From positions 620,001 through 684,000 of the forward strand of contig WGOD01000002.1 of NCBI GenBank assembly GCA_016124205.1: a stretch of DNA of 64,000 bases, written 5' to 3'. Position numbers and translations under genes: made by a program. The notes under the pieces were generated by a model. It was not told where the DNA came from. It searched no databases and saw only the letters and a list, made by a program, of their open reading frames with translations. Below are positions 23,644 to 52,413 of this stretch, in pieces. This stretch comes from Alphaproteobacteria bacterium (GTDB taxonomy: Bacteria; Pseudomonadota; Alphaproteobacteria; Caulobacterales; Maricaulaceae). The first letter of the stretch is position 1; each line of letters opens with the position of its first letter.

Positions 23644-24786
23644 TCAGGCCGCCGCGCGCTCCGCGGCATAGGCCTGAACCGCCTCGATCACGCGCTGCTG
23701 GTCCTCGCCGCGAATGTCGGCGTGCATCGGCAGGGAAACGACGCGGTCGCAGACCTTCATCGTCACCGGCAAGCCGCCCGGCGCAACCGGGAAGGGGGCG
23801 TAGGGCGTCTGCATGTGCAGCGGAATCGGATAGTAGACCGCGGTCGGCACGCCGCGCGCCGAGAGATAGGAGCGGAAGGCGTCGCGATCATCGACCTCGA
23901 CCGTGTACTGCGCCCAGGTGCAGGTCGCGCCGGGGGCCAGTTGCGGCGTCTTCACCGCGCCCTTCAGTCCCTTTTCATAGGCGTCGGCCGCCTTCTGGCG
24001 CAGGACGAGTTCCTCGGCGAAGGCGTCGAGCTTCACCAGCAGGATGGCCGCCTGCATCGTGTCGAGGCGCGAATTGAGGCCGATCCGGGCGTATTCGTAG
24101 CGTTCCTTGCCCTCGCCGTGGACGCGGTAGGACTTGATCAGCTCGGCGATGTGCGGGTCCTTGACGAGGACCGCGCCGCCATCGCCGTAGCAGCCGAGCG
24201 GCTTGGCCGGGTAGAAGCTGATGGTCAGCGCATCGGCCCAGTCGATCGAGTGTTTGCCGTTCAGCGTCGCGCCATAGCCCTGCGCCGCATCGGAGATGAG
24301 CTTCATCCCGTGTTCGTCACAGATCGCCTTGATCGCCGGGTAGTCGGCCATCTGGCCGAACAGGTCGACGGCGATGACGGCCGCGGGGCGGAGCTTGCCC
24401 TCGGTCTTCACCATCTCGATGGCTGCCTTCAGGCTTTCCGGATCCATGTTGTAGGTGACCGGGTCGATATCGACGAAGACCGGCGTGGCGCGGGTCCACG
24501 GAATGACTTCCGCCGAGGATGCGAAGGTGAAGGACGGCACGAAGACCGCGTCGCCCTTGCCGATCCCCATCGCCAGCAGCGGCAGCACGATCGCATCGGT
24601 GCCGTTGGCGCAGGCCAGGCCGATCGGCGCTCCGGCGAACTCGGCCAGACGCGATTCCAGTTCACGGACCTGCGGTCCGAGAATGAAGGCGCCGCTGTCG
24701 AGCACGTCGGCAATGGCGGCATCGAGCTTCGACCGGAGACGGTCGCGCTGCGCGCCGAGATCGATGAAGGGGATCATGTCGGTCAT
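23644..24786 (-). CDS. DegT/DnrJ/EryC1/StrS sugar aminotransferase (WbpE/WlbC-type)
   Basis: PFIDLGAQRDRLRSKLDAAIADVLDSGAFILGPQVRELE; ISDAAQGYGA; SFYPAKPLGCYGDGG with PLP lysine. Confidence 0.9.
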   Translation of the reverse strand: MTDMIPFIDLGAQRDRLRSKLDAAIADVLDSGAFILGPQVRELESRLAEFAGAPIGLACANGTDAIVLPLLAMGIGKGDAVFVPSFTFASSAEVIPWTRATPVFVDIDPVTYNMDPESLKAAIEMVKTEGKLRPAAVIAVDLFGQMADYPAIKAICDEHGMKLISDAAQGYGATLNGKHSIDWADALTISFYPAKPLGCYGDGGAVLVKDPHIAELIKSYRVHGEGKERYEYARIGLNSRLDTMQAAILLVKLDAFAEELVLRQKAADAYEKGLKGAVKTPQLAPGATCTWAQYTVEVDDRDAFRSYLSARGVPTAVYYPIPLHMQTPYAPFPVAPGGLPVTMKVCDRVVSLPMHADIRGEDQQRVIEAVQAYAAERAAA

Positions 24787-24876: not shown

Positions 24877-26700
24877 TTATTCGACAGTCACCGATTTCGC
24901 GAGATTGCGGGGCTGGTCCACGTCCGTGCCCTTGTAGACGGCGGCATGATAGGCGAGCAGCTGGATCGCGACCGCAGCGACGATCGGCGATGCGATCTGC
25001 GCGCAATCCGGCAGGACGATCACGTCCTCGCGCTTCACCTCGCACGCCGCCAGTCCGGCGGAATCGGTGACGAGGATGACGCGGGCACCGCGCGCGGCCA
25101 CTTCCTGCATGGTCGACATCGTCTTGTCCCAGAGATGGTCGTGCGGGGCGACGACCACGACGGGCAGGTTTTCCTCGATCAGGGCGATCGGGCCATGCTT
25201 CAGCTCGCCAGCGGCATAAGCCTCGGCGTGAAGATAGGAAATTTCCTTCAGCTTCAGCGCGCCTTCCTGGGCGAGCGGGTAATAGACGCCGCGGCCGAGA
25301 TAGAGGACGGAGCGGGACTGGGTCAGTTCGGCGGCGAGGCGCTTGGCCTCGTCTTCCATTTCAAGCGCCTTGGAAACATCGCGAGGCGCTTCGAGCAGGC
25401 CCGTGACGAGTTCCTTCTCACGGTCGGCGTCAATGTGGCCGCGCGACCGCCCGGCATTGATCGCGATCATGGCCAGCGCCGCCAGCTGGCAGGTGAACGC
25501 CTTGGTCGATGCCACGCCGATTTCCGGACCGGCCAGGGTCGGCAGGGCAATGTCGGCCTCGCGCGCCATGGTGGAGTGCGCCGCGTTGACGACGACGGCG
25601 GTTGTCAGTCCGCGATCCTTGCAGAAGCGCATGGCGGCCAGCGTGTCGGCGGTTTCTCCGGACTGCGAGATGAACAGCGCCAGATCGCGTGACGACACAG
25701 CGGGGTCGCGGTACCGGAACTCCGAGGCGACTTCATTGCGTACCGGGATTCCCGCGATCTGCTCGATCCAGTATCCGGCCACCTGACCCGCATAGCCTGC
25801 CGTGCCGCAGGCGACGATCAGTACACGGTCATACTGCTTGAAATCGATACCCTCGAACGGGCGGACGACCAGGCGGAGCGGGTCGACATAGTGGGTCAGC
25901 GTCCGCGCGATGACTTCCGGCTGCTCATGGATCTCCTTTTCCATGAAGTGCCGGTAGTTGCCCTTCTCCGCGAGCGCGGCGGACAGCTCGACGACTTTCT
26001 CCGGACGATGAGCCGGCTGACCCTTTCGGTCGTAAATGTCAGTCTTGGTCTTCGTGACGATTACGTAGTCGCCCTCTTCGAGATAGGCGACGCGCTGCGT
26101 GAAGGGGGCCAGGGCGAGCGGATCGGAGCCGAGGAAGCCTTCACCATCGCCGAACCCGACGACGAGCGGGGCCCCTTCGCGCGCGCCCATGATCAGGTCG
26201 GGCATCCCGTCGATCAGAACGGCAATGGCGAATGCACCCTTCAGGCGGGCCAGCGTCGTTTCGAACGCACTCTTCGGATCACCCGACTTTTCAAGCTGAT
26301 GGTCGATGAGTTGGGCGACCACTTCGGTGTCGGTCTCGGTCTCGAACGTCCGTCCGGCCGCTTCCATCTCTTCCCGGAGCTCGCGGAAATTCTCGATAAT
26401 CCCGTTGTGGACGATGTAGACGCGCCCGGCCCGGTGCGGGTGGGCGTTTGTCTCGGTCGGCGCGCCGTGCGTTGCCCATCGGGTGTGCGCAATGCCCGTA
26501 ATCCCGTCAGCCGGGTTGGAATCCAGAACCTTGTCGAGTTCCTTGAGCTTGCCCGTCGCCCGGCGGCGCTCGACATGGCCGTCCGTGCCGGCGACTGCGA
26601 TGCCGGCAGAATCATAGCCCCGATATTCGACCCGCCGCAGTCCTTCGATCAGTCGTTCGGCGACCGTAGTTTCGCCGACAATCCCGACAATTCCGCACAT
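24877..26700 (-). CDS. glmS: Glutamine-fructose-6-phosphate aminotransferase (isomerizing)
   Basis: MCGIVGIVGETTVAERLIEGLRRVEYRGYDSAGIAV; C-terminal LAKSVTVE. Confidence 0.98.
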   Translation of the reverse strand: MCGIVGIVGETTVAERLIEGLRRVEYRGYDSAGIAVAGTDGHVERRRATGKLKELDKVLDSNPADGITGIAHTRWATHGAPTETNAHPHRAGRVYIVHNGIIENFRELREEMEAAGRTFETETDTEVVAQLIDHQLEKSGDPKSAFETTLARLKGAFAIAVLIDGMPDLIMGAREGAPLVVGFGDGEGFLGSDPLALAPFTQRVAYLEEGDYVIVTKTKTDIYDRKGQPAHRPEKVVELSAALAEKGNYRHFMEKEIHEQPEVIARTLTHYVDPLRLVVRPFEGIDFKQYDRVLIVACGTAGYAGQVAGYWIEQIAGIPVRNEVASEFRYRDPAVSSRDLALFISQSGETADTLAAMRFCKDRGLTTAVVVNAAHSTMAREADIALPTLAGPEIGVASTKAFTCQLAALAMIAINAGRSRGHIDADREKELVTGLLEAPRDVSKALEMEDEAKRLAAELTQSRSVLYLGRGVYYPLAQEGALKLKEISYLHAEAYAAGELKHGPIALIEENLPVVVVAPHDHLWDKTMSTMQEVAARGARVILVTDSAGLAACEVKREDVIVLPDCAQIASPIVAAVAIQLLAYHAAVYKGTDVDQPRNLAKSVTVE

Positions 26701-35337: not shown

Positions 35338-36297
35338 TCAGGCGTCGCCCCGCCACTTCGCCTGAAGCTTGAGCACCATCAGCGCCTGTTCGACCGGCGT
35401 GACCGCCTTGCGGCCGTTCGCGATGTCGTCGAGCACCTGCCTGGCCTGGGCGATATACATCTCGTTGATGTCGGCGAGCGTGGTGTCGAAGGTTTCGTGC
35501 TCGCGTTCGCCCGAGATGGAATGAACCAGCGTGCCGCGATGGAAGTCCCAGTCGAGCGCGCCTTCCGTGCCGGAGATGTAGTAACGGCGGCGGGCCACGC
35601 GCTGTATGTAGTCGGTCAGGATGTTGACCAGCGCCCCGTTCTCGAAGCGCATCACGCTGGCGGCGACGTCCTCGGTCTCGGTTTCGAGCGCGCCCGACCA
35701 GGCGGTCATGCCGACGAAGTCCTTCACCGGGCCGAGCAGCCAGGTGAGGTAATCGATCTCGTGCGTGTCGAAGACGGCGCCGCCGCCGAGGGCTTTCCGC
35801 GAACAATACATGTTCCGGTAGTCCTCATAGGGGTGCCAGTCCGGCAGCCATTGTCCGACGACGCACTGCACGCCGGTGACCTTGCCGATGCCGCCGCCGT
35901 CGATGATGCGCTTCATGTGGGCGAAGGCCGGATGGAATTTCCAGTTCGAGCCCATGTGCAGGTAAACGCCGGCCTTCTTCACGGCGTCGGCGATCGCCTC
36001 GCCGTCAGCGACCGTCACGGCCAGCGGCTTCTCCACGAAAATGTTGAGGCCCCGCTCCGCTGCGGCGATCGCCTGGCGGGCATGGAAGACGTTCGGGCTG
36101 GCCAGCAGGACAAGGTCGGGACGCATGTCCAGAACCTGGTCCTGGTCGCCCCAGGCCATCGCGCCGATCTCGTCGGTGAACTGCTTGCGGCGCTCTTCGG
36201 TGGGATCGAAGCCGATCACCTCCCCCGCGCCGGCGGCCAGAAAACAGCGGGCGTGGCGGCGGCCGATGGAGCCGAGACCGAGGATCGCAACCTTCAT
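35338..36297 (-). CDS. Gfo/Idh/MocA family oxidoreductase
   Basis: MKVAILGLGSIGRRHARCFLAAGAGEVIGFD; FVEKPLAVTVADGEAI; GSNWKFHPAF. Confidence 0.92.
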   Translation of the reverse strand: MKVAILGLGSIGRRHARCFLAAGAGEVIGFDPTEERRKQFTDEIGAMAWGDQDQVLDMRPDLVLLASPNVFHARQAIAAAERGLNIFVEKPLAVTVADGEAIADAVKKAGVYLHMGSNWKFHPAFAHMKRIIDGGGIGKVTGVQCVVGQWLPDWHPYEDYRNMYCSRKALGGGAVFDTHEIDYLTWLLGPVKDFVGMTAWSGALETETEDVAASVMRFENGALVNILTDYIQRVARRRYYISGTEGALDWDFHRGTLVHSISGEREHETFDTTLADINEMYIAQARQVLDDIANGRKAVTPVEQALMVLKLQAKWRGDA

Positions 36298-36298
36298 G

Positions 36299-37462
36299 CT
36301 ACGAGCCCAGCACGTCACGAACCGCGGCGACGACCTGGGCGGCCTCGTCGTCGGTCAGCGTCGGGAAGCAGGGCAGGGTCAGCGTCTCGGCGTAATAGGC
36401 CTCAGCTTCCGGGAAAGAGCGGCCTTCGAAACGCGGCGCGTGGTACGGCATCTTGTGCACCGGAATGTAGTGCACCTGGCTGCCGACCTGGCGTTCGGCC
36501 AGTTCCTTCATCACCTGTTCGCGTGGCTTGCCGACCGCGTCGTAGTCGATGCGGATCGTGTAGAGGTGGTGACCGGAGCGGTCGCGCTGGTCCGGCCGGG
36601 CCTGCACCAGGCGGACATGGTTCATGCCGGCGAATTCGCGGTCGTAGAATTTCGCGATCTCGCGGCGGCGCGCAATGAAGTCCGGCAGGCGCGACATCTG
36701 GGCCGTGCCAAGGGCGGCCTGAATGTCGCAAAGCCGGTAGTTGAAGCCAAGCGTTTGCTGTTCGTGATACCAGGGCTTTCCTGCATCCTCCGTGTTCTGA
36801 AGAAGGCCCGGCTCGCGCTCGATTCCGTGGCTGCGCAGCAATTGCAGGGCCTTGTAGAGGTCCGGATCGTCGGTCGCGACCGCGCCGCCCTCACCCGTCG
36901 TGATCGGTTTCACCGGGTGGAAGGAGAAGGTGTACATGTCGGCATAGCCGGTGCCGACCATTTTGCCGTCATCACCGATCGCGCCGACGGAGTGGCTGGC
37001 ATCCTCGATGATGATCCGGTCGCCCGCCGCCTTGCGCAGCGCCGCGTTGGACGAGGACAGGCCGCCATAGGAGACCGGGATCACGACCTTGCACTCGGGA
37101 TGTTCGGCCAGATAGGCGGTCAGCCCGTCCACCGACATCGTCATCGTGTCGGGATCGACATCGACGAGATCGGCGCGTGCCCCGCAATAGGTGATCGCGT
37201 TGGCGCTGGCGCAGAATGTGATCGGCTGGGTGACCCCGACATCGCCGTCCTTCAGCCCCGCCGCGAGGCAGGCGATGTGCAGCGCTGCGGTGCCATTGGC
37301 GACCGCGACGACGTACTTGGCGCCGGTCAGATCGGCGATCGACTGTTCGAAGGCGGTGACCGCCGGACCCTGGGTCAGGAAATCGCTCTTCAGGACGTCG
37401 ATGACGGCCTGGATATCGGTGTCGTCGATCGTCTGGCGGCCATAGCCGAGGAAGCGGGTCAT
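36299..37462 (-). CDS. pseC: UDP-4-amino-4,6-dideoxy-N-acetyl-beta-L-altrosamine transaminase (PseC)
   Basis: MTRFLGYGRQTIDDTDIQAVIDVLKSDFLTQGPAVTAFEQSIADLTGAKYVVAVANGTAALHIA; SFHPVKPITTGEGG. Confidence 0.93.
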   Translation of the reverse strand: MTRFLGYGRQTIDDTDIQAVIDVLKSDFLTQGPAVTAFEQSIADLTGAKYVVAVANGTAALHIACLAAGLKDGDVGVTQPITFCASANAITYCGARADLVDVDPDTMTMSVDGLTAYLAEHPECKVVIPVSYGGLSSSNAALRKAAGDRIIIEDASHSVGAIGDDGKMVGTGYADMYTFSFHPVKPITTGEGGAVATDDPDLYKALQLLRSHGIEREPGLLQNTEDAGKPWYHEQQTLGFNYRLCDIQAALGTAQMSRLPDFIARRREIAKFYDREFAGMNHVRLVQARPDQRDRSGHHLYTIRIDYDAVGKPREQVMKELAERQVGSQVHYIPVHKMPYHAPRFEGRSFPEAEAYYAETLTLPCFPTLTDDEAAQVVAAVRDVLGS

Positions 37463-39606
37463 GCGGCTTTCTTCTTCTGCTGGGTGAGGGTTTTCAGGCG
37501 CCGGGCGATCTCGTCGAGCACTTGCTGACGTCCGCCATATTCGCGCGCGGTAATGTGTTTCATCGACGGGAAGAGCGTGTCGGTCTCGTTGTCCTCCGAC
37601 GCGATCCGCCACCAGTCGGGCAGATGCGGCGTCGTGGTCAGCGACCAGGTGTTCGCGCCCGCGGCGCCCGCGGTCTCGCGCAGCGCCACGCCCGGCGTCA
37701 GGACCAGGTCGAGCTTCTCGCAGAGGGCGACGACTTCCTCGAAATCATCCTTCAGGTCGACACCCGGCATCACATGGATGTCGACACCGAACTTCTCCTT
37801 CACCTCGGCGAGCTCCTGCGTGCAATCCGAGTACTGAAGAAGCACGAAATTGACGTCCTTCGTCTTCAGGATGTCGCCCCATTGCAGAATGTCGGTATAG
37901 GCCTTGGAGCGGAACAGGTCGCGCGTGCCGGAGCGCCAGGAAATGCCGACATTCAGCTTGGCCGGCGGCAAGGACTTGAGCCACTTGGTCACCTTGCCGC
38001 GGGCGGCAGAGGAGGCCGTGAAGAGCGGCTCCTTCGACCCGCGATAGCTGCCCTTCTGCATCACATAGTGCAGGAAGAGGTCTTCGGAGATCGCGATTTC
38101 GGAATATTCCTTCATCGCGTCGAGAATGTCGCGCGTGATCCGGCCCGGATCGGCATCAAGCGGCGTTCCCTCGCGGTCGAGCCAGTACTGGTTCTCGCTG
38201 ACGGCGAACGGGCCGAAGAGGCGCGAAGTGGAATATACGGTCAGATTGTCCATCGACCGTTCGAACAGGCTGGCGACCCGCTTGTCGCAGACATAGCCGT
38301 ACTGGGCTTTCGGGTTGGCCATCTGCTTCAGGATGGCGAGACGCATGATCTCGTCGCCCACGCCCTGACCGCCGAGGAAGAGGGTCGAATACTGCGGGAT
38401 CAGGCGCTGGCGCTTGATCCGCATGTGGATCTTCATGCGCTTCGCGAAGCGGGCGAAATTACGCCAGATCGCGTAATGCGCCTGCCGCAGGATGAAGAGC
38501 GCCTCTTCCCAATTCCCCAAGCCTGCCGCGAGCGAGAAATAGCGGTAGGTCGATTCCGGCATGTAGGACTTGATGCCGACGATCCCGACCGCACGGCGAT
38601 AGTATTCGCGGGCAAGCGCGAAATCGCGCTGCTCCTCGATTTCCACGCCCATGAAGAAGAGCGCTTCGGCGATCATGTTCTGGGTTTCGGGGCTGGTCTC
38701 CGTGGCGTAGAGCGCGTCGTTCATGCGCGCGATCGCCTCGGCGTGATTGCCCTGGATCGACTCGAACAGCGCCCGTACAGGCAGGAGATCGAGATCGGCC
38801 GCCGAAGCGTCCTTGATCCGCTGGGCGGCTTCATCCATGCGACCCGACAGGATCAGCGCATTCACCTCAAGCGCGGACAGGCGCGCCAGATCCTTCTTCA
38901 CGCGGCGGCGGCGCGACATGCGCGTATCGCGCGCGCTTCGCAGCTTGTGGACCTGCTCGGAGCGGCCGATGAAGCGTTCGATATAGTTCCAGAGTTCGTG
39001 CGGCTTGAGCAGCACCTCGCAGCCATAGACGACCGCTGCCGGCTCGTAGTTCATCGCGATGAAATAGATCTCGACAGCCTGAACCAAGGGGGTCTTGGCC
39101 ATCATCGAGTGCCAGTCCCAGGCCCGCTTGTAGAAGTAGTCGGCGATGATCGGCCGGCCGATCAGCGCGCCTTCCATTTCCGGGCGGAAGCCTTCGGTCT
39201 CGATCATCAGAATGGTCTGATAGTCGTCGAGATTCTTCGAGAAGCCTTCCCATTTCGGCTTCGAGAGCAGGATCCGCCGGGCTTCCTCGACAACCTCGGC
39301 CGCGCGGTCGAACTGCTTTGTGGCCAGCAGATCCTGCAGCAGCGCAATCGTCGTGTGCGGCCGCTTGCGGAAGCTGTAGGCCCATTCGGACCACTCGACC
39401 GAGACGAAGCGATAGTGCGCGGCATGGAGAATGCGCCGCCAAGCCGCCGAGACGACGCCCAGCGGCAGGACGTACGCAAAGATCTTGACCAGCGGCTGGA
39501 CCTGCCGCGGCTTCACGATCTTGAAGAGGAGGCCGAAGACCCACGCGGACAGGCGGTAGACGACCCGCTTGATGAACCGGATCAGCCTGACAAAGAACTG
39601 ACGCAC
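37459..39606 (-). CDS. TPR-containing protein with C-terminal glycosyltransferase-like domain (FlmG-like architecture)
   Basis: Helical repeat N-terminal half; C-terminal half with LFLGGQGVGDEIMRLAIL, LNVGISWRSGTRD, LVLTPGVALRETAGAAGANTWSLT. Located between pseC and pseB. Confidence 0.75.
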   Translation of the reverse strand: MRQFFVRLIRFIKRVVYRLSAWVFGLLFKIVKPRQVQPLVKIFAYVLPLGVVSAAWRRILHAAHYRFVSVEWSEWAYSFRKRPHTTIALLQDLLATKQFDRAAEVVEEARRILLSKPKWEGFSKNLDDYQTILMIETEGFRPEMEGALIGRPIIADYFYKRAWDWHSMMAKTPLVQAVEIYFIAMNYEPAAVVYGCEVLLKPHELWNYIERFIGRSEQVHKLRSARDTRMSRRRRVKKDLARLSALEVNALILSGRMDEAAQRIKDASAADLDLLPVRALFESIQGNHAEAIARMNDALYATETSPETQNMIAEALFFMGVEIEEQRDFALAREYYRRAVGIVGIKSYMPESTYRYFSLAAGLGNWEEALFILRQAHYAIWRNFARFAKRMKIHMRIKRQRLIPQYSTLFLGGQGVGDEIMRLAILKQMANPKAQYGYVCDKRVASLFERSMDNLTVYSTSRLFGPFAVSENQYWLDREGTPLDADPGRITRDILDAMKEYSEIAISEDLFLHYVMQKGSYRGSKEPLFTASSAARGKVTKWLKSLPPAKLNVGISWRSGTRDLFRSKAYTDILQWGDILKTKDVNFVLLQYSDCTQELAEVKEKFGVDIHVMPGVDLKDDFEEVVALCEKLDLVLTPGVALRETAGAAGANTWSLTTTPHLPDWWRIASEDNETDTLFPSMKHITAREYGGRQQVLDEIARRLKTLTQQKKKAA

Positions 39607-39636
39607 TCCTGCCTCCCCCGGCGCAATGCCGTGCGA

Positions 39637-40647
39637 TTATTCGGAGATGACGCCCGTCTCCTCGATGAGGTCAAGGATCTCCTGGGGTTCCAGCCAGAGC
39701 GTGTTGTTCTCGCTGGTGTAGGAGAAGCCGACCGGCACAGCCTTGCCGGTCTCGCCCTCATAGGTGGTGTCGTCCGTAGACGCGCCCATCTTGATCTGAG
39801 GCATGATGACGAACTTGTCTTCATACTCATAGGTGAAGAGGCTTTCCTCTTCGGACACCATCGCTTCGTGCAGCTTTTCGCCAGGACGAATGCCGACGAT
39901 CTTCAGTTCGCAGTTCGGCTGGATCGCGCGCGCCAGGTCCGTGATCTTCATTGACGGGACCTTCTTCACGAAGGTTTCACCGCCGCGGAAGATCTGGCCG
40001 CAATGATCGACGAACTTCACGCCGTCCTCGATGCGCAACCAGTAGCGGGTCATGCGCTCGTCGGTGATCGGCATCGGCTTGCCCTCCTGGGCGAGCCGGC
40101 GGAAGATCGGGATGATCGAGCCGCGCGAGCCGATGACGTTACCGTAGCGGCAGTTGCAGAAGCGGGTGCCGCCTTCGCCAGCGAGCAGGTTGGCCGCGAT
40201 GAACAGCTTTTCCATGCAGGCCTTGGTCGAACCGTAAAGGTTAATCGGCTTCACCGCCTTGTCGGTCGACACCGCGACGACTTTCGGAACGTCGTTGCGG
40301 ATCGCTGCATCGATCAGGTTTTCCGCGCCGAGAATGTTCGTCTTGATGCACTCCATCGGATTGTATTCCGAAGCGACGACCTGCTTCATCGCGGCGCCGT
40401 GGAAAACGATGTCGATGCCCTTCATTACGAAGGAGAGGCGGGCGGCGTCGCGGATGTCGCCGATGAAGAAGCTGAGAACGTCGGAATTCTTGTGGTCCGC
40501 AAAGGTCTTGGCCATGCGGTCCTGTTTGAATTCGTCGCGCGAATAGATGACCAGCTTGTTGGGCCGGTAATTGTTCAGGACATGCGACACAAAGGCGTGG
40601 CCGAACGAACCGGTGCCCCCGGTAACCAGAATATTCAAGCCGTCCAT
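39637..40647 (-). CDS. pseB: UDP-N-acetylglucosamine 4,6-dehydratase (inverting), PseB
   Basis: MDGLNILVTGGTGSFGHAFVSHVLNNYRPNKLVIYSRDEFKQDRMAK; GAAMKQVVASEYNPMECIKTNILGAENLIDAA; STDKAVKPINLYGSTKACMEKLF. Confidence 0.95.
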   Translation of the reverse strand: MDGLNILVTGGTGSFGHAFVSHVLNNYRPNKLVIYSRDEFKQDRMAKTFADHKNSDVLSFFIGDIRDAARLSFVMKGIDIVFHGAAMKQVVASEYNPMECIKTNILGAENLIDAAIRNDVPKVVAVSTDKAVKPINLYGSTKACMEKLFIAANLLAGEGGTRFCNCRYGNVIGSRGSIIPIFRRLAQEGKPMPITDERMTRYWLRIEDGVKFVDHCGQIFRGGETFVKKVPSMKITDLARAIQPNCELKIVGIRPGEKLHEAMVSEEESLFTYEYEDKFVIMPQIKMGASTDDTTYEGETGKAVPVGFSYTSENNTLWLEPQEILDLIEETGVISE

Positions 40648-40743: not shown

Positions 40744-41508
40744 CTACAGAATTGTGTAGGCAGAGAAGGGCTGATGCGGGAAGCGCTGGAATTGAAGTTC
40801 CCCCATCGAAAGCTCTTCCATCACAGCTTGTGTTTCGCCCGGGAACCACTGGCAGCACAACTCGTCGAACACGAGAATCGATCCCTTGTGCAGGCGCGGG
40901 CGGATCTGCTTCAGCGCCTCTTTCGTCGGCGCGTAGATATCCATGTCGAAGATCGCCATCGCGATCATCGTCTCGGGATGATCGTCGAAGAACGTCGGAA
41001 GCGTCTTGCGAACATCGCCCTTGTAAAGCCCGAACTTCTTGATGTGAGAGATCGGCGAGAATTGCTCGTGAATCTCCAGAATACGGTCGAGCGTTTGCTC
41101 GTATCCGCGCGGAACGCCGTAGTCGCCTTCCTTCCAGTCGGACCCGACGGCGTTCTTCGAGTCTTCGGCGCCAGAACCGGCAAAGCCTTCAAATGTGTCG
41201 AAGCCGAAGATCATCCGGGAAAAGTTGTACGGCTCGTGGATGCCGCGGAGGCTCTGGAGCAGCGCAAGCGTCGCGCCGTAGCGGTTGCCGAATTCCAGGA
41301 TATAGCCGTGCTGCCCGACCAGTTTCTGGTACAGGTGATCGTAGAACAGGATGCGCGACAATTCCTGCCGGCGCTGGAAAAGCGACAGATTGACGTGCAG
41401 CTCGCCGTCCGGAACGACGCCGGACTTCAACAGGCCCATCAATTCGTCAATGCTTTCTCTCTCGCCGGTTGAAGGCTGCTGCGAGACGCTTCCGATTTCG
41501 TCGCTCAT
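40744..41508 (-). CDS. TylF/MycF-like class I SAM-dependent methyltransferase
   Basis: YILEFGNRYGATLALLQSL, IFGFDTFEGFAGSG, MAIFDMDIYAPTKEALKQIRPRLHKGSILVFDEL. Confidence 0.75.
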   Translation of the reverse strand: MSDEIGSVSQQPSTGERESIDELMGLLKSGVVPDGELHVNLSLFQRRQELSRILFYDHLYQKLVGQHGYILEFGNRYGATLALLQSLRGIHEPYNFSRMIFGFDTFEGFAGSGAEDSKNAVGSDWKEGDYGVPRGYEQTLDRILEIHEQFSPISHIKKFGLYKGDVRKTLPTFFDDHPETMIAMAIFDMDIYAPTKEALKQIRPRLHKGSILVFDELCCQWFPGETQAVMEELSMGELQFQRFPHQPFSAYTIL

Positions 41509-42510: not shown

Positions 42511-43173
42511 ATGACGGCTTCCAACCGCCCGAAGCAAACCGACACCTTCCTGAAAAGCGAAGGCGACGCCTGGTTTTCACGCAACGCGACGGTGCTCAAG
42601 GAAGACCGGGACGACATCATTCTGCGCGTGCTGTCTCACCTGAAGGCCAAGCCGAAGCGGGTGCTGGAGATCGGGGCGGCCAATGGTTACCGCCTCGCGG
42701 CGATCGAACGCCTGCACGGATCGGCCTGCGCCGGGGTCGAACCTTCGGCGAAGGCCGTCGAGGAGGGCAAAGCCGCCTATCCGTCGATCGATCTGAAGGT
42801 CGGCGCGGCGGACAGCCTGCCGTTCGAGGATAACGCCTTCGACATGGTGATCATCGGTTTCTGCATGTATCTGGTCGATCCGGAGCTGCACTTCCGCGCT
42901 GTGGCCGAAGCCGACCGCGTGCTTGCCGAGGGCGGCCTTCTGGTAATTTTCGATTTCCAGACACCGGCTCCCTACTACAATCTGCCGGGTCTGCGCGCCC
43001 ACAAGATGGACTTCTCCAGCCTGTTCACCGCCCACCCCAGCTACAGCCTCGTCCACCGCGAGCTGAACCAGGCGGGCGGCGATACCTATATGGACCTCGA
43101 CCGCCGGGAAGGGGTTGATGTCTTGACGAAGAATATGGGCCGTGCCTTCCCTCCCAACCCCTACAAGAGCTGA
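42511..43173 (+). CDS. Class I SAM-dependent methyltransferase
   Basis: RVLEIGAANGYRLAAIERLHGSACAGVEPS; AADSLPFEDNAFDMVIIGFCMYLVD. Confidence 0.88.
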   Translation: MTASNRPKQTDTFLKSEGDAWFSRNATVLKEDRDDIILRVLSHLKAKPKRVLEIGAANGYRLAAIERLHGSACAGVEPSAKAVEEGKAAYPSIDLKVGAADSLPFEDNAFDMVIIGFCMYLVDPELHFRAVAEADRVLAEGGLLVIFDFQTPAPYYNLPGLRAHKMDFSSLFTAHPSYSLVHRELNQAGGDTYMDLDRREGVDVLTKNMGRAFPPNPYKS

Positions 43174-43209
43174 CGTCCCGCCCGCTCACCACTTGCCGGA
43201 TGACCCCAG

Positions 43210-44520
43210 ATGGATGACTCCCGCCCCTCCAATTCCCGCCGCTACACGGCGTCGGTCGACTTCCTGAAGCGCGCCGAAGCGGTCATTCCGCTCGGGTCGC
43301 AGACCTTCTCCAAGAGCCGGACGCAATTCCCGGTCGGCGCCGCGCCGCTCTTTGTGCAGCGCGCGGAAGGTCCGTATTTCTGGGATCTCGATGGCAATCG
43401 CTATCTCGATTTTGCCTGTTCGCTCGGCGCGATCACGCTGGGGCACGGTGACCCCGAGATCAAGGAAGCCGTCGTCCGCCAGATGGATGAAGGCGTGCTG
43501 TTCTCGCTGCCGAACCCGATCGAGACGCGCGTCGCGGAGATGATCGTCGAACGCATTCCGTGTGCGGAGAAAGTGCGTTTCGGCAAGAATGGTTCGGATG
43601 CGACCGCCGGCGCGGTGCGTCTGGCGCGGGCCTATACCGGCCGCGAACGCGTGGCGCTGTGCGGCTATCACGGCTGGCAGGACTGGTATATCGGCACCAC
43701 GGCGCGCAATCGCGGCGTGCCGGAATCCACCCGCACCCTGTCGCACACCTTCCCCTACAACGATCTCGAAGCGCTCGACCGCCTGCTGGCGAGCCACAAG
43801 GACGAGTTCGCCTGCGTGATCATGGAGCCGGTGGCCTTCACCGAGCCGACCCAGGGCTATCTGCAGGGTGTGAAGGACATCGCGCACAAGCATGGCGCGC
43901 TGCTGATCTTCGACGAGGTCGTGACCGGCCTGCGCTACGCGCCGGGATCGGCACAGGAACTCTACGGTGTCACGCCGGACCTGTGCAGCCTCGGCAAGGG
44001 CCTCGCCAACGGCTTCCCGCTGTCGGCGATCGCCGGGCGCGCCGATGTGATGAAGCTTATGGAGGAGATCTTCTTCTCCTTCACCATGGGCGGTGAAGCG
44101 ATCTCGCTGGCCGCCACCGAGGCGGTCCTCATCAAGTCCAAGCGCGAAAAGACGCTCGACCACATTGCCGCGACCGGCACCTATCTGATCGAGCGCTTCC
44201 GGGCGATGGTCGAGAAGCACAATCTCGGCGACGTGCTGTCGATCTCGGGGCATCCGAGCTGGACGCTGATCGGCATGAAGGATCAGCCGGGAGCCGACGC
44301 CTTCGCTCTGAAGACGCTGTACATCCAGGAGACCTGCCGCCGGGGGCTGTTCAGCTTCGGCGTCCATTTCCTCTCCTATGCCTTCAAGAAGGAGCATGTG
44401 GACGAGGCGATGGCGGTCTATGACGAGGTCTTCCCGATCATGCGCCGCGCGATCGATTCCGGTGACTTCAAGTCCTTCCTCGAGTGCGATCCGCTCGTTC
44501 CGCTGTTCAAGGTCCGCTAG
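43210..44520 (+). CDS. Class-III PLP aminotransferase, glutamate-1-semialdehyde aminomutase-like
   Basis: LDGNRYLDFACSLGAITLGHGDPEI; KNGSDATAGAVRLARAYTGR; IFDEVVTGLR; SLGKGLANGFPLSAI (PLP lysine). Confidence 0.9.
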   Translation: MDDSRPSNSRRYTASVDFLKRAEAVIPLGSQTFSKSRTQFPVGAAPLFVQRAEGPYFWDLDGNRYLDFACSLGAITLGHGDPEIKEAVVRQMDEGVLFSLPNPIETRVAEMIVERIPCAEKVRFGKNGSDATAGAVRLARAYTGRERVALCGYHGWQDWYIGTTARNRGVPESTRTLSHTFPYNDLEALDRLLASHKDEFACVIMEPVAFTEPTQGYLQGVKDIAHKHGALLIFDEVVTGLRYAPGSAQELYGVTPDLCSLGKGLANGFPLSAIAGRADVMKLMEEIFFSFTMGGEAISLAATEAVLIKSKREKTLDHIAATGTYLIERFRAMVEKHNLGDVLSISGHPSWTLIGMKDQPGADAFALKTLYIQETCRRGLFSFGVHFLSYAFKKEHVDEAMAVYDEVFPIMRRAIDSGDFKSFLECDPLVPLFKVR

Positions 44521-44538
44521 TCGGGCGAGGGTTCGGGC

Positions 44539-45504
44539 ATGGCTTTCGGCAATATTCTGATCACCAGCGCCAGCGCCAAGGCGATCCTGGTCCAGAATTT
44601 CCGTGCCGTGATGGAGGAGTTCGGCGGCAAGGTGTTTACTGCCGACGCGGAGCCGGCCTGCGCCGCCGGCTTCTTCGCGGATCAGGCCTTCCAGGTGCCG
44701 AAACTGCGCGACGCCGGCGCGCTCGATCACATGCTCGCCCTGGTCCGCGACAACGGCGTGAAGCTGATCGTGCCGACGCGCGATGGCGAACTGCCCTTCT
44801 TTGCGGCGAACAAGGTCTATTTCGAAGCCGAGGGCGCGCGCGTCCTCGTGCCGAGCGAAAGCCAGCTGGACACCGTTCAGGACAAGGCCAAATTCGCCGA
44901 TGCGATCGAGGCCGCCGGCATTCCCGCCGTTCCGCGTATCCATCCGCCTTTCGCCGATGACGCGTATCCGATCTTCGTTCGGCCGATCACCGGCGCGGGC
45001 GGGATCGGCGCGCGCGCGATCAAATCGGCTGAGGATTTCGAAGCGATCGAAGACAGGGACTCCCTGCTCTTCCACCCCTTCATCCACTCGCGCGAGTACA
45101 CGATCGACCTTCTGATGGCCGTCGATGAGCCGAAGGCGCTGCAGGCGATTGCGCGCGAGCGGAAAGTCGTCGTGGCCGGCGAAAGCAAGGTCTCGAAAGT
45201 CGTCGACCGGCCGCGCCTCGTCGAACTGACGCTGAAGCTCGGCGAGACGCTGGGCCTTGTCGGACACAACACGGTTCAGGCCTTCGACGATGACGTGAAT
45301 GGCACGCATTTCATCGAGGTCAATCCGCGCTTCGGCGGCGCATCCAACCTGTCAATCCAGGCCGGTCTCGACAGTCCGCGCCGGATTCTCCAGATGCTGA
45401 CCGGCCAGACGGAAGCTGCCTACGCGCCGCGCCCGGTGCGGATCGGTGCGACGATGTACCGGTATCAGCAGGACGTCATCGTCGACGAAGCCCCGGATCA
45501 CTGA
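44539..45504 (+). CDS. ATP-grasp domain ligase (carbamoyl-phosphate synthase/PylC-like)
   Basis: VRPITGAGGIGARAIKSAEDF glycine-rich loop and HFIEVNPRFGGASNLSIQAGLDSPR metal-binding motif. Confidence 0.85.
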   Translation: MAFGNILITSASAKAILVQNFRAVMEEFGGKVFTADAEPACAAGFFADQAFQVPKLRDAGALDHMLALVRDNGVKLIVPTRDGELPFFAANKVYFEAEGARVLVPSESQLDTVQDKAKFADAIEAAGIPAVPRIHPPFADDAYPIFVRPITGAGGIGARAIKSAEDFEAIEDRDSLLFHPFIHSREYTIDLLMAVDEPKALQAIARERKVVVAGESKVSKVVDRPRLVELTLKLGETLGLVGHNTVQAFDDDVNGTHFIEVNPRFGGASNLSIQAGLDSPRRILQMLTGQTEAAYAPRPVRIGATMYRYQQDVIVDEAPDH

Positions 45505-46181
45505 TGGCCGCGATCAGCGCTTTCCTCGTCGACCTCGACGACACGCTGGCCGCAGAGCACGACTATGTCCTGTCCGGCTATCGCGCGGTCGCGGCGTGCC
45601 TCGCCGAGGAGACCGGCGCGGAGGGCGCTGCTGTGCTGGCGCGCCTGCGCTACGAGTTCTTCAAATTTGGCCGCGTCGGCGCATTTGACCGGCTCTACAA
45701 GCATTTCGGCTGGACCGCGGGCGGCAATGCGCCGTCCATCCCGGATCTGGTCACGGTCTATCGCGAACACCGCCCCTCCCTCGCCTTCTATGACGGGGCC
45801 GAAGCCGCCCTCGCCCAATTGCGCGCCCGCGCGCCGGTCGCCATCGTGACCGACGGGGCGGAAGCGATGCAGGCGCGCAAGGCGCAGGCGCTCGGCCTCT
45901 ACGCGAAGACCGACGCCGTGATCCTGTGCGACTCGCTCGGCAAGGCGAAGCCGGATCCGGCGGGGTATCACGCCGCGCTCGAAACGCTGGGCGCTGACGC
46001 GGCGTCCGCCCTGGTGATCGGGGACGATCCCTTCCACGACTTGGAGGCGGCTCGCCGGCTCGGATCGCGTGCCATCCGCGTGCGGACAGGCCGCCTCGCC
46101 TCTCTTGAAACGCCGGAGCCCTGGTCCGGAACGGAAGAGTACGCGAGTTTTGCCGCGGCTGTTGACGGATTGCTGAAGTGA
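45504..46181 (+). CDS. HAD-superfamily hydrolase
   Basis: FLVDLDDTLAAE, AIVTDG, DSLGKAKPDPAGY, VIGDDPFHDLEAA motifs. Confidence 0.9.
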   Translation: MAAISAFLVDLDDTLAAEHDYVLSGYRAVAACLAEETGAEGAAVLARLRYEFFKFGRVGAFDRLYKHFGWTAGGNAPSIPDLVTVYREHRPSLAFYDGAEAALAQLRARAPVAIVTDGAEAMQARKAQALGLYAKTDAVILCDSLGKAKPDPAGYHAALETLGADAASALVIGDDPFHDLEAARRLGSRAIRVRTGRLASLETPEPWSGTEEYASFAAAVDGLLK

Positions 46182-47098
46182 CGGTCCGGGTCCGCATTCT
46201 CGCCGGGGCCGGACCCGATACCGGGCTGGGACATGTCACGCGTTGTCATGCTCTGGCCGAGGCGCTGCGCACGCAGGGTGCAGACGTCACGCTGGAGACG
46301 GCCGATCCGGAATGGGTTGAAGGCGCCATCGGGCTGGAGACCGAGCCGTTCGGGACCCGGCCCGTCGACCTGATCGTGCTCGACAGATACGGGACGAGCG
46401 CGCAGGAACGCGCCGACCTGAAAGCGCAATGCCGCAAGCTCGCGGTGATCGACGACCATTTCGCGCCGCCCAGCGAGGCGGACATCGTGATCAATCACAA
46501 TCTCTATGGCGACCCGGACCGGTATGACGTGTTTCCAGGGATCCAGGTGCTGGCCGGGACTGACTACACGCTGCTCCGTCCGGGCTTCGACGCGTTGCGC
46601 AACCGCGCTGCACCTGCGGAGGGGCGCATTCTCGTCGCCCTCGGGGGCGGCGCCTATGCCGCGAAAGGCATCGCCATCGCCAACATGCTGCGCTCCACCT
46701 TCCAGACCGGAGTCGACCTGGTGCTGAATGCCGCGATGGCGAAAGACGCGAGCGGTGTGAATGCAGGCGTCAGGATCGTCTCCGGGAGCGAAGCGCTCGA
46801 CGCGATGGCGGGCGCCACGATCTATGTCGGCGGCCTGGGCGTGGCGATGATCGAGGCGCGCGCGCTGGGCCTGTTCTTGATCGGTATTCCGACCGCGGCC
46901 AATCAGGATTTTGCGGTGGACTGGGCCAAGGCCAACGGGTTTCCGGTCCTGACCGGCATTCCTGAAAGCGACGCCGAGTTCCGCGCGCTGGCCGATGCGG
47001 TCCGCACAGGCCTCAGCCGGGGCCGCGACCTGCCTGCCAAGCCGGACGGGACGGGGGCTGCGACGACCGCCTCTGCCCTGCTGCACGAAGTTTCCTGA
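46178..47098 (+). CDS. pseG: UDP-2,4-diacetamido-2,4,6-trideoxy-beta-L-altropyranose hydrolase (PseG)
   Basis: RILAGAGPDTGLGHVTRCHALAEALRTQGADV; VIDDHF; VLAGTDYTLLRPGFDALR; upstream of pseI. Confidence 0.92.
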   Translation: MTVRVRILAGAGPDTGLGHVTRCHALAEALRTQGADVTLETADPEWVEGAIGLETEPFGTRPVDLIVLDRYGTSAQERADLKAQCRKLAVIDDHFAPPSEADIVINHNLYGDPDRYDVFPGIQVLAGTDYTLLRPGFDALRNRAAPAEGRILVALGGGAYAAKGIAIANMLRSTFQTGVDLVLNAAMAKDASGVNAGVRIVSGSEALDAMAGATIYVGGLGVAMIEARALGLFLIGIPTAANQDFAVDWAKANGFPVLTGIPESDAEFRALADAVRTGLSRGRDLPAKPDGTGAATTASALLHEVS

Positions 47099-47167
47099 CC
47101 CCCGCCTTGAGCGCCGGGGTGCGCTTCGATAAAGAGGCGCGAACACATCCCAAAGGGAGTCTCCCGC

Positions 47168-48226
47168 ATGAGCGCCGACGTTATCGAGATTGCTGGCCGT
47201 AAAATCGGCCCCGACCATCCGCCCTATGTGATTGCGGAGATGTCCGGCAATCACAATGGCGATCTGGAACGCGCCAAGATGCTGATCCGTCTGGCCGCCG
47301 AGGCGGGTGCCGACGCGGTGAAGCTGCAGACCTATACCGCCGACACGATCACGATCGATTCCGACCGTGACGAATTCATCGTGAAGGACGGGATGTGGAA
47401 AGGTCGCCGCCTGTACGAACTCTACCAGGAAGCGCACACGCCCTGGGAATGGCATGCCGAGCTGTTCGCGCATGCCAAGGAACACGGCATCACCATCTTC
47501 TCCTCGCCGTTCGACGAGACGGCAGTGGACATGCTCGAAGAGCTGGGCGCGCCGGCCTACAAGATCGCCTCGGCCGAGATCACCCACTTCCCGCTGATGG
47601 AGAAGGTCGCGAAGACCGGCAAGCCGGTGATCGTGTCGACCGGCATGGCCGAGGACGCGGAAATCCGCGAGGCGGTCGATTTCCTGAAGAAGGCCGGCGC
47701 AAAGGATCTGATCGTCCTGCACTGCATCTCGGCCTATCCCACGCCGATCAGTGAACTCAATCTGCGCCGCATCCCCTATATCGCGAAGACGTTCGACGTT
47801 CAGGTTGGCCTGTCGGACCACTCGATGGGCGTACTGGGCGGGGTCGCGGGCGTCGTGGCCGGTGCGACGGTGCTGGAAAAGCACTTCACCGACAGCCGCG
47901 AAAAGGGCGGTGTCGACAGCGGGTTCTCGCTGGACGAACACGAGCTGAAAGAGCTGTGCAAAACGATCAAGGAAGCCCATGAAGGCCTCGGCAACGAGAA
48001 GAACGAGCTGGCCAAATCCGAAGCCGGGACCCGGCAGTTCCGCCGCTCGATCTATTTCGTGAAGCCGGTCGCCAAGGGCGAAACCATCACCGAAGAGCAT
48101 ATCAAGGTGATCCGTCCGGCCTCGGGCCTCGAGCCGCGCCACTACTGGACGGTTCTGGGATCGAAGGCGGCCACCGATATTCCGGCGAAAGTGCCCGCCG
48201 AATGGTCGATGATCGAGCGGAGCTAA
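47168..48226 (+). CDS. pseI: Pseudaminic acid synthase (PseI)
   Basis: PYVIAEMSGNHNGDLERAKMLIRLAAEAGADAVKLQTYTADTITI; C-terminal SAF/antifreeze-like domain. Confidence 0.96.
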   Translation: MSADVIEIAGRKIGPDHPPYVIAEMSGNHNGDLERAKMLIRLAAEAGADAVKLQTYTADTITIDSDRDEFIVKDGMWKGRRLYELYQEAHTPWEWHAELFAHAKEHGITIFSSPFDETAVDMLEELGAPAYKIASAEITHFPLMEKVAKTGKPVIVSTGMAEDAEIREAVDFLKKAGAKDLIVLHCISAYPTPISELNLRRIPYIAKTFDVQVGLSDHSMGVLGGVAGVVAGATVLEKHFTDSREKGGVDSGFSLDEHELKELCKTIKEAHEGLGNEKNELAKSEAGTRQFRRSIYFVKPVAKGETITEEHIKVIRPASGLEPRHYWTVLGSKAATDIPAKVPAEWSMIERS

Positions 48227-48231
48227 CTCAC

Positions 48232-48966
48232 ATGAGCGCCGATGCGTCCGGCCTGAAGCGGCTGGCCCTGATCCCCGCCCGCGGCGGATCTAAGCGGATT
48301 CCACGCAAGAATATCATCGACTTCCATGGCAAGCCGATGCTCGGCTATTCGGTCGACGCGGCGCTGGAAAGCGGTCTGTTCGACCGGGTCCACGTCTCGT
48401 CGGATGATGACGAAGTCCGGGAGATTGCGGCAAAACTCGGCGCCGATGCCGACCCCAGACGCCCGGCCGAACTGGCCGACGACCACACGGGCATATTACC
48501 GGTCGCGCGCTGGGCGGTGCAGGAATTCGCCCGGCAGGGCCAACATTTCGACGACGTCTTCATCCTGTTCGCCTGCGCACCCTTCATCGAGGCGGAAGAG
48601 CTGAAACAGGCGTATGAGGTCTATCTGGCCAATGACCGGAAGCGGAATCTGCTGACCGTCTGCCGCGCTCCGACCCATGTCGAGCAATACTATCGCCTGA
48701 ACGACCAGGGCCAGTTGAACCCGCTGCAAAAGGGCGGGAATTTCATCCGCAGTCAGGATCTCGACTATGCCTATTTCGAGACCGGCACGTTCACGATCTT
48801 CTCGGCGGAGTGGCTGACGACCCATCCCACGCTGATGGACGACATGAATTATGTCGGGTTCGAACTTCCCGAGTGGAAATCGGTCGATATCGATTCCCCG
48901 AAAGACCTCGACTATGCTCGTCGCCTCTACGGACTGCACCAGTCGATGGCGAAAGAGTCGGAATGA
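48232..48966 (+). CDS. pseF: Pseudaminic acid cytidylyltransferase (PseF)
   Basis: LALIPARGGSKRIPRKNIIDFHGKPMLGYSVDAALES; follows pseI. Confidence 0.93.
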   Translation: MSADASGLKRLALIPARGGSKRIPRKNIIDFHGKPMLGYSVDAALESGLFDRVHVSSDDDEVREIAAKLGADADPRRPAELADDHTGILPVARWAVQEFARQGQHFDDVFILFACAPFIEAEELKQAYEVYLANDRKRNLLTVCRAPTHVEQYYRLNDQGQLNPLQKGGNFIRSQDLDYAYFETGTFTIFSAEWLTTHPTLMDDMNYVGFELPEWKSVDIDSPKDLDYARRLYGLHQSMAKESE

Positions 48967-50803: not shown

Positions 50804-51649
50804 ATGAACGCCTCTTCCACACCGTCCAGAAGTGTCACCCTCCAGCGCCGCAACCTTCAAGGACGCGGCGTCTCGCGCGCCTTCAGCGACCTGATCGACG
50901 GGTTCGCCGCCTGGCAGATCTGGGCCAATCTCGGCTGGAATGACATCCGGACGCGCTACCGCCGCTCGATGATCGGTCCGTTCTGGATCACAATCTCGAT
51001 GGCGGTCACGGTCCTGGCGCTCGGCTTTCTCTATGCCCGCCTGTTCCGGATCGATATCGAAGCCTTCCTGCCGATGCTCGCGCTCGGCTTCATTCTCTGG
51101 GGCTTCTTCGCGCCAACGCTGAACGAGTGCTGCACGATCTTCGTGGCGAACCAGAACTTCATCAAGCAGGCGACTATCCCGCTGACAGTCTATGTCAACC
51201 AGGCGATCTTCCGTCAGCTGATCACCTTCGCGCACAACTTCATCATCTATTTCGGGATGGTGTTCTTCCTGCACATTCCGATCGGTTGGGTGACGCTCTG
51301 GGCCATACCGGCCTTCATTCTGGTGACGCTCACCATCTTCGGCGCCGGCCTGTTTCTCGCCGTGGTGTGCGCACGGTTCCGGGACATTCCGAACATCGTC
51401 CAGAACATCCTTCAGATCGGCTTCTATCTCAGCCCGATCCTCTGGAGCGCCGAACTGCTGCCCGAGCGCGCCTTCTTCCTGACGTGGAACCCGTTCTACT
51501 ACCTGATCTACGTCATCCGCATGCCGTTGCTCGGTGAAGCGCCGACGCCTGAGATCTGGCTCGGCACCGGCGTGATCACCGTCCTCTGCCTCGCGCTTGG
51601 CCTTGTCAGCTTCCTTCTGATGCGCCGCCGCATCGCATACTGGGTCTGA
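50804..51649 (+). CDS. Polysaccharide ABC transporter permease (Wzm-type)
   Basis: ABC-2 type: IWANLGWNDIRTRYRRSMIGPFWITISMAVTVLALGFLYARLF. Confidence 0.93.
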   Translation: MNASSTPSRSVTLQRRNLQGRGVSRAFSDLIDGFAAWQIWANLGWNDIRTRYRRSMIGPFWITISMAVTVLALGFLYARLFRIDIEAFLPMLALGFILWGFFAPTLNECCTIFVANQNFIKQATIPLTVYVNQAIFRQLITFAHNFIIYFGMVFFLHIPIGWVTLWAIPAFILVTLTIFGAGLFLAVVCARFRDIPNIVQNILQIGFYLSPILWSAELLPERAFFLTWNPFYYLIYVIRMPLLGEAPTPEIWLGTGVITVLCLALGLVSFLLMRRRIAYWV

Positions 51650-51651
51650 TC

Positions 51652-52413
51652 ATGTCCGAACCCATCCAGGCCAGCCTGACCGACGTCGACGTCGAATTCC
51701 AGATCTACGACACGCCGCAACGGTCGCTGAAAAACAATCTGATCGCGGCCGCGACCGGCGGCACGCTGGCGCGCGACTCCCGCGACCGGATCGTCGTGAA
51801 AGCGCTCGATAATATCTCGATGACGCTGGAGCATGGCGACCGCATCGCCCTGATCGGTCACAACGGGGCGGGCAAGACCACGCTGCTGCGCGTGCTGGCC
51901 GGCATCTACGAGCCGACCCGCGGCGATGTCTCCCTGTCGGGCTCGGTGGCCGCCGTCTTCAATGTCGGTCTTGGCATCGACCTTGAGGCGACGGGCCGCG
52001 AGAACATCTATCTGCGCAGCCTGTTCCTGGGGATTGGCCGCAAGGACGCCCAGTCGCTTTCCGACGAAATCCTCGACTTTGCCGAGCTTGGCAATTTCGC
52101 GGACATGCCGGTGCGCACCTATTCGACCGGCATGCTGGCGCGGCTTCAGTTCGCGATCACGACGGCCGTCGAGCCGGACATTCTGCTGATCGACGAAGGC
52201 ATCGGGGCCGGCGATGCCGCCTTCTTTGCCAAGGCTCAGCAGCGCATGGATGAACTCATGGCGCGCTCGGGCATTCTGGTACTGGCCTCGCACTCCGAAG
52301 GTCTTGTACGGAGCATGTGCAACAAGGCGATGCTCCTGAACCACGGGAAAGTCGTCTTTCAGGGCGATATCGACGACACCTATTCGGCCTATGCCGATCT
52401 CATCGCGCTCTAG
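51652..52413 (+). CDS. Polysaccharide ABC transporter ATP-binding protein (Wzt/KpsT-type, no C-terminal extension)
   Basis: Walker A IGHNGAGKTTLLRVL, YSTGMLARLQFAI signature, DILLIDEGIGAGD Walker B; 253 aa. Confidence 0.93.
   Translation: MSEPIQASLTDVDVEFQIYDTPQRSLKNNLIAAATGGTLARDSRDRIVVKALDNISMTLEHGDRIALIGHNGAGKTTLLRVLAGIYEPTRGDVSLSGSVAAVFNVGLGIDLEATGRENIYLRSLFLGIGRKDAQSLSDEILDFAELGNFADMPVRTYSTGMLARLQFAITTAVEPDILLIDEGIGAGDAAFFAKAQQRMDELMARSGILVLASHSEGLVRSMCNKAMLLNHGKVVFQGDIDDTYSAYADLIAL

Follow-up and report, generated by a model that had tools for sequence, protein, structure and literature searches.

A candidate ATP-grasp and HAD substitute for PseH in an alphaproteobacterial pseudaminic acid locus

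How is the 4-amino sugar of pseudaminic acid synthesis acylated in a locus that has no recognizable PseH? The question is raised by a 64,000-nt stretch of DNA, referred to here as the window, from an Alphaproteobacteria bacterium of the Maricaulaceae (GCA_016124205.1, contig WGOD01000002.1, positions 620,001-684,000 of the forward strand). Locus-level hidden Markov models (HMMs) detected neither a GNAT nor a formyltransferase gene within the 64-kb window or the 20 kb viewed at the related locus (L059) of G027, a genome from another genus of the same family. Three genes preceding pseG in the window encode a class-III pyridoxal phosphate (PLP) aminotransferase (AT) that resembles glutamate-1-semialdehyde (GSA) aminomutase, an ATP-grasp ligase and a HAD hydrolase. 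The original prediction was that the three together make an amino-containing acyl substituent and attach it to the nonulosonate, possibly standing in for PseH. Its description of the layout was confirmed, the three open reading frames (ORFs) running in the same direction with 18 nt between AT and ligase, a 1-nt overlap of ligase and HAD and a 4-nt overlap of HAD and pseG. On balance, the analysis favors a variant CMP-pseudaminic-acid-type pathway in which the ligase and HAD take the place of PseH while the AT carries out a separate modification. Gene content, gene order, conserved catalytic residues, co-occurrence and gene fusions are the observations on which this reading is based.

The ligase matched the Pfam families PylC-like_N (2e-16), ATPgrasp_Ter (1.5e-14) and ATP-grasp_3 (7e-14). 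Its active site was intact, with E260, N262, R264 and R208 invariant and K116 nearly so among 48 relatives. The DxDxT, K and DD motifs of the HAD were also intact (D10, D12, T14, K149 and D179 invariant, D174 in 97-100%), and the cap motif YRxHxP was conserved among its relatives. Structure models of the ligase and the HAD (predicted local distance difference test scores of 96.3 and 95.8, respectively) support the enzyme class of each, not the substrate. The best fold match of the ligase was an uncharacterized ATP-grasp protein (2pn1), followed by carboxylases, PylC and an L-amino acid ligase, the latter two being the characterized amide ligases among the matches. None stood out among the many C1-cap HAD phosphatases and dehalogenases matched by the HAD model. 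A fold similarity to N-acylneuraminate-9-phosphatase was seen, but a role as a nonulosonate-9-phosphatase was disfavored because the ligase and HAD also occur as a pair in many loci that lack pseI. Moreover, since PseB makes a 6-deoxy sugar, a C9 hydroxyl is not expected here.

A collection scan made with the ligase yielded 80 named loci from the Alphaproteobacteria, Bacillota, Bacteroidota, Nitrospirota, archaea and others; no ligase relative was found in the phage collection. Together with four loci from the window's class these made up a scored set of 84, in which gene roles were assigned with our own HMMs at fixed thresholds. The HAD was located within 9 kb of the ligase in 75 of the 84 loci and directly adjoined it on the same strand in 65, lying downstream in 62. 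In a Lachnospiraceae locus (L177), the two were fused in a single 553-aa protein. The ligase and HAD are one conserved unit. PseI, PseB or PseC was encoded nearby in 69 of the 84 loci. The pseI gene itself was present in 38 (40 if the window and L059 are included) and absent from 46, and 31 of these 46 had a PseC-like DegT aminotransferase. In four loci that were checked (L144, L165, L173 and L198, the last on an annotated Priestia plasmid), a phosphoglycosyltransferase (PF02397) immediately preceded the ligase, giving the order DegT-phosphoglycosyltransferase-ligase-HAD, a context that fits ligation to a 4-amino sugar. In some nonulosonate-type loci, the ligase was fused to, or directly followed, an NAD-dependent epimerase-type domain (L086, L089 and L136; separate genes in L125), often with a GNAT and without pseG.

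The replacement of PseH was examined by comparing loci that have both pseI and pseG. An acyltransferase (GNAT or formyltransferase) was present in 2 of the 21 loci with the ligase and in 30 of 47 without it (Fisher p = 4e-5). This split by pseG was adopted once the test on the undivided loci had yielded p = 0.09. The 47 comparison loci were selected on pseI, had no ligase and carried pseG. The tree of the AT pointed the same way. The window and L059 formed a pair (support 100/99) that joined L061 (100/100) and then L060 and L062 (94/99). The latter three loci, which have no ligase, had the order cytidylyltransferase-AT-(PseG fused to GNAT)-PseI, while in the window and L059 the order was AT-ligase-HAD-PseG and PseG had no GNAT domain. 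Two compact operons show the same substitution: L163, in which CMP-transferase, PseG, ligase, HAD and PseI genes overlap or abut and PseG scored above its cut-off, and L124, in which PseB, PseC, PseF, PseI and PseG are followed by the ligase and HAD and no GNAT was detected. Because the ligase and acyltransferases are anticorrelated in loci with pseG and pseI, and because the GNAT domain fused to PseG in the closest AT relatives is absent from the window and G027, where ligase and HAD are present, the most likely interpretation is that the ligase and HAD replace PseH in acting on the PseC product. This part of the original prediction was supported.

Several observations weigh against this interpretation, 1) 14 of the 19 loci that have the ligase and pseI but no pseG do carry a GNAT or formyltransferase, and 2) in a Parabacteroides locus (L175:9302-10954), the ligase is fused to a PglD-type hexapeptide acetyltransferase, so the ligase family is not always an acetyltransferase replacement, 3) 17 of the 47 comparison loci likewise had no detected acyltransferase, making its absence alone weak evidence, 4) the window PseG scored well below its family cut-off (TIGR03590, 107.6 vs 153.6 bits), 5) the counts are not phylogenetically independent, and since the loci are related by descent the p-values overstate independence; in addition, the control loci come from one class and the ligase loci from a broad range, 6) the role definitions and thresholds of our own HMMs were set after some of the data had been viewed and 7) PseH may instead act in trans, given that the window genome (G000) is only 70% complete and that the PseH of Caulobacter, FlmH, has a locus number distant from those of flmC, flmD and neuB, at a step that is redundant in that organism (PMC7591256). 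The PseH model TIGR03585 gave no match above its cut-off in G000, at that completeness, or in G027, but the cut-off also misses GNATs fused to PseG. Weak matches far below the cut-off were present elsewhere in both genomes. Weak matches to this model occurred in nearly all genomes, including 13 of 14 control genomes, and its use for calling PseH was abandoned as not discriminating in favor of the locus-level HMMs.

Other variations at this step were seen in relatives' pse loci. In five of them (L209-L212 and L246), a formyltransferase-like gene lies between pseG and pseI, the usual place of pseH, as if the product were N-formyl pseudaminic acid; a 7-formamido nonulosonic acid from Pseudoalteromonas distincta is cited in PMC3210612. 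Loci L232-L238, from the same genus and family, had a similar layout and no detected GNAT. Among the extra genes of L235 is one for a WbqC-like protein (PF08889, L235:11413-12135), possibly a further PseH substitute.

The AT belongs to the Aminotran_3 family (171 bits, cut-off 30.5). Its PLP lysine, K263, was present in 31 of 31 relatives and D235 was invariant. It shares the class-III fold and catalytic lysine with GSA 2,1-aminomutase but fell below the NCBIfam cut-offs of that enzyme (PRK06209, the best match, 396.6 vs 486; HemL, 261.5 vs 527) and has another gene context. In the window's family, PseI was found in 38 of 136 genomes and the AT in just 2 of 137, those of the window and G027. 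Within the class, from which loci L060-L097 were drawn, 30 of 385 genomes had a relative of the AT at E<=1e-70, and pseI was present in 22 of the 27 AT loci other than the window and L059. The AT could be an ordinary GSA aminomutase or unrelated paralogue, with the ligase and HAD decorating some other capsule sugar and pseG close by through chance; its best named family and the occurrence of the ligase and HAD in polysaccharide loci without pseI would be in keeping with this. That explanation is very improbable given the scores below the cut-offs, the pseI genes at most other AT loci of the class and the tight packing of these genes with pseG in operons of two genera. Wide occurrence without nonulosonate genes, which would count against the original proposal, was seen for the ligase and HAD, as the 46 loci without pseI show, though not for the AT within this class. 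The wider AT family extends beyond nonulosonates, since relatives with 37-40% identity adjoin DUF4910 and CDP-sugar genes on Streptomyces and Shinella plasmids (L083 and L084). On a Methylomagnum plasmid (L079), the AT was found in a different context, beside a split transketolase-like pair, a short-chain dehydrogenase/reductase and a NeuB-family gene.

The partners of the AT are informative as to its function. Among the 31 AT ORFs that were examined, 12 carried a fused SpsF-type cytidylyltransferase (Pfam confirmed the fusion in L063), and in L092, the AT was fused to a Gfo/Idh/MocA oxidoreductase. A Gfo/Idh/MocA or aldo/keto oxidoreductase was encoded within 9 kb in 18 of 22 loci with AT and pseI as compared with 3 of 59 pseI controls (p = 2e-11), and two or more acylating genes were present in 13 of 22 vs 2 of 59 (p = 1e-7), although both comparisons were devised on the very loci that test them. 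An aminotransferase accompanied by an oxidoreductase and by a spare acyltransferase fits the formation of an extra sugar amine. The pairing is weaker in the window than in L059, because the window oxidoreductase is about 7 kb from the AT and on the opposite strand.

These associations also bear on the original proposal that the trio is a single unit, with the AT making an amino or hydroxy-amino acid, the HAD dephosphorylating a precursor and the ligase acylating the 4-amino group with that amino acid. The three genes are contiguous and nearly overlapping in both the window and L059, N-acyl-amino-acid substituents are known on nonulosonates (N-acetylglutamine on Campylobacter jejuni pseudaminic acid, PMC3068675) and ATP-grasp genes were mildly enriched in AT loci (6 of 22 vs 3 of 59, p = 0.01), those ligases being divergent. 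However, the AT was mostly found without this ligase and alongside a complete PseG-PseH pair, its fusions are to a cytidylyltransferase or an oxidoreductase and not to ligase or HAD, and only 1 of the 38 loci with ligase and pseI had an AT. A single acyl-making unit is therefore unlikely. The neighborhood survey did not show the three genes to be conserved together, since all of them were recovered only in the window, in G027 and, loosely, in Chitinophaga L136, and the sole basis for an amine-bearing acyl group was the proximity of the AT. As a nonulosonate gene, the AT is distinct from the ligase and HAD and has spread independently of them, and its more likely role is the addition of a third amine rather than the making of the acyl group.

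If a third amine is formed, the ligase might acylate that amine, leaving the 4-amino group to an ordinary GNAT encoded elsewhere. The multiple acylating genes of AT loci look as if the extra amine has its own acyltransferase, and the weak GNAT matches elsewhere in G000 and G027 would offer a candidate, but those matches are so common among control genomes that they carry little weight. Since the ligase and HAD occur mostly in loci without an AT, in which a third amine is not expected, this arrangement is judged improbable, somewhat more so than a single acyl-making unit.

The proposed substitution of PseH has a parallel in Neisseria, where PglB2, an ATP-grasp/phosphoglycosyltransferase protein, replaces the acetyltransferase PglB to give a glyceramido instead of an acetamido sugar (PMC11130364, PMC6959607). 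As judged by description, PglB2 of N. meningitidis, which makes glyceramido-acetamido trideoxyhexose (GATDH), resembles the proposed enzyme in that an ATP-grasp protein replaces an acetyltransferase and places a non-acetyl acyl group on the 4-amino group of UDP-2-acetamido-4-amino-trideoxyhexose. The window ligase differs in being a separate gene coupled to a HAD and in feeding PseG and PseI rather than an undecaprenyl carrier. It has only the ATP-grasp and PylC-like_N domains, with no fused phosphoglycosyltransferase, and so is not a member of the PglB2 family proper; the DegT-phosphoglycosyltransferase-ligase-HAD loci resemble a split PglB2. No function was found in the literature for ORF8, a neighbor of Neisseria PglB2. 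The GNATs PseH, FlmH and SpsD of the pseudaminic and legionaminic acid pathways carry out the same proposed step, N-acylation of the PseC or SpsC product, but have an unrelated fold and use acetyl-CoA, while the window ligase would use ATP and a free acid. In Sinorhizobium fredii NGR234, the counterpart of PseH is rkp3_013, and FlmH brings back the capsule of a strain that lacks it (PMC7591256). PylC and the L-amino acid ligases share the fold, the PylC-like N-terminal domain and amide formation, but differ in substrates and are only about 16-18% identical to the window ligase. SfmE (SO_3265), an ATP-grasp protein of the Shewanella oneidensis flagellin glycosylation operon, is required for full flagellin mass (PMC3765264). 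SfmE resembles the window ligase in lying within a nonulosonate modification operon, but it is of the ATP-grasp_4 type, its operon has no HAD and its genome has no clear PseH, PseG, PseI and PseF orthologues.

The AT and oxidoreductase have a counterpart in working scheme only. The KdnB/KdnA pair of Shewanella makes 8-amino-3-deoxy-D-manno-octulosonic acid (8-amino-Kdo), the oxidoreductase and then the aminotransferase acting on the ulosonic acid before CMP activation; the enzyme families are different. The type of product predicted for AT and oxidoreductase, a 5,7,8-triamino nonulosonic acid, is known from Flexibacter (Tenacibaculum) maritimus (PMC3210612). The literature passages retrieved assigned no gene to its 8-amine, and those from the T. 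maritimum genome paper were silent on O-antigen genes.

By family membership, PseB and PseC would form UDP-2-acetamido-4-amino-2,4,6-trideoxy-altrose. In place of PseH and acetyl-CoA, the ATP-grasp protein would convert a free carboxylic acid to its acyl phosphate and join this to the 4-amino group in an amide bond. By analogy, the HAD phosphatase may provide that acid by dephosphorylating a precursor; the best guess for the acid is a hydroxy acid such as glycerate. The acylated product would then pass through PseG, PseI and PseF. The AT and an NAD(P) oxidoreductase would replace a hydroxyl, either on the nonulosonate or on its precursor, with a third amine, perhaps at C8. More tentatively, the AT with a Gfo/Idh/MocA or aldo/keto oxidoreductase, often fused to a CMP-transferase, may constitute a widespread but unrecognized triamino-nonulosonate branch with the extra amine probably at C8, the acyl group of one amine being set here by the ATP-grasp and HAD proteins. 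The pathway predicted is a new variant of that for pseudaminic acid with a non-standard sugar decoration; a literature search did not find pseudaminic acid, ATP-grasp and aminotransferase together, and one paper combined nonulosonic acid with ATP-grasp.

The locus consists of a minus-strand half (35338-40647) with PseB, PseC and the oxidoreductase and a plus-strand half (42511-48966) with a methyltransferase, AT, ligase, HAD, PseG, PseI and PseF (Table 1). PseB, PseC and PseI scored above their NCBIfam cut-offs, and PseF, slightly below its own, was still the best match. The order AT-ligase-HAD-PseG-PseI-PseF recurs in L059, which has GlmS, oxidoreductase, PseC and PseB on its other side, so that the oxidoreductase comes after PseC there too.

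Table 1. Genes of the pse locus and of the surrounding region, numbered from the first nucleotide of the window
Feature	Position	Strand	Remarks
Gfo/Idh/MocA oxidoreductase, proposed AT partner	35338-36318	-	GFO_IDH_MocA E=4e-21
PseC, aminotransferase forming the 4-amino sugar (expected substrate of PseH)	36299-37462	-	TIGR03588 452.9 bits, cut-off 424; start set at an internal ATG by inference
PseB, UDP-GlcNAc 4,6-dehydratase	39637-40647	-	TIGR03589 463 bits, cut-off 408
TylF-like methyltransferase adjoining PseB	40744-41508	-	
S-adenosylmethionine (SAM) methyltransferase, 5' of AT	42511-43173	+	Methyltransf_11 E=7e-14; weak match to TIGR03587 (Pse-associated methylase)
AT, class-III PLP aminotransferase, GSA-aminomutase-like, nonulosonate-locus family	43210-44520	+	436 aa; Aminotran_3 E=4e-50
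ATP-grasp carboxylate-amine ligase, proposed PseH substitute	44539-45504	+	321 aa; PylC-like_N, ATP-grasp_3
HAD phosphatase-type partner of ligase	45504-46181	+	225 aa; Hydrolase E=3e-21
Short PseG-like UDP-sugar hydrolase, no GNAT domain	46178-47098	+	GTG start; TIGR03590 107.6 bits, sole family match
PseI, pseudaminic acid synthase	47168-48226	+	TIGR03586 476.5 bits, cut-off 340
PseF-like CMP-pseudaminate synthetase	48235-48966	+	TIGR03584 191.8 bits, cut-off 205.7
Wzm/Wzt-like ABC transporter, putative, 3' of plus-strand pse genes	50804-52413		
Tetratricopeptide repeat protein	37459-39606	-	
Second DegT aminotransferase and GlmS-like gene	23644-24786 and 24877-26700	-	

A relative of the SAM methyltransferase adjoins PseB in L059, and the TylF-like methyltransferase family recurs in 9 of the 38 ligase loci with pseI. 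A 707-aa antisense ORF (43186-45309) that overlaps the AT and ligase genes was read as a GC-driven artifact. Our own profile of the tetratricopeptide repeat protein found relatives in family members, at their pseI loci, and in Phenylobacterium L119; its identity as a FlmG-like glycosyltransferase would be a guess. The second DegT aminotransferase and the GlmS-like gene lie in the same sugar region of the window, while the GlmS of G027 is located within the pse operon.

Flagella, capsules and spores are coated with nonulosonic acids, whose N-acyl groups determine how they are recognized and their antigenicity. If the proposed pathway is correct, prediction based on PseH overlooks a class of loci, and the acetyl-CoA step would be exchangeable for ATP-driven coupling of a free acid, which would be useful in the chemoenzymatic synthesis of unusual sialic acid analogues. 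It would also single out specific genes as candidates for formation of the known 8-amino nonulosonate.

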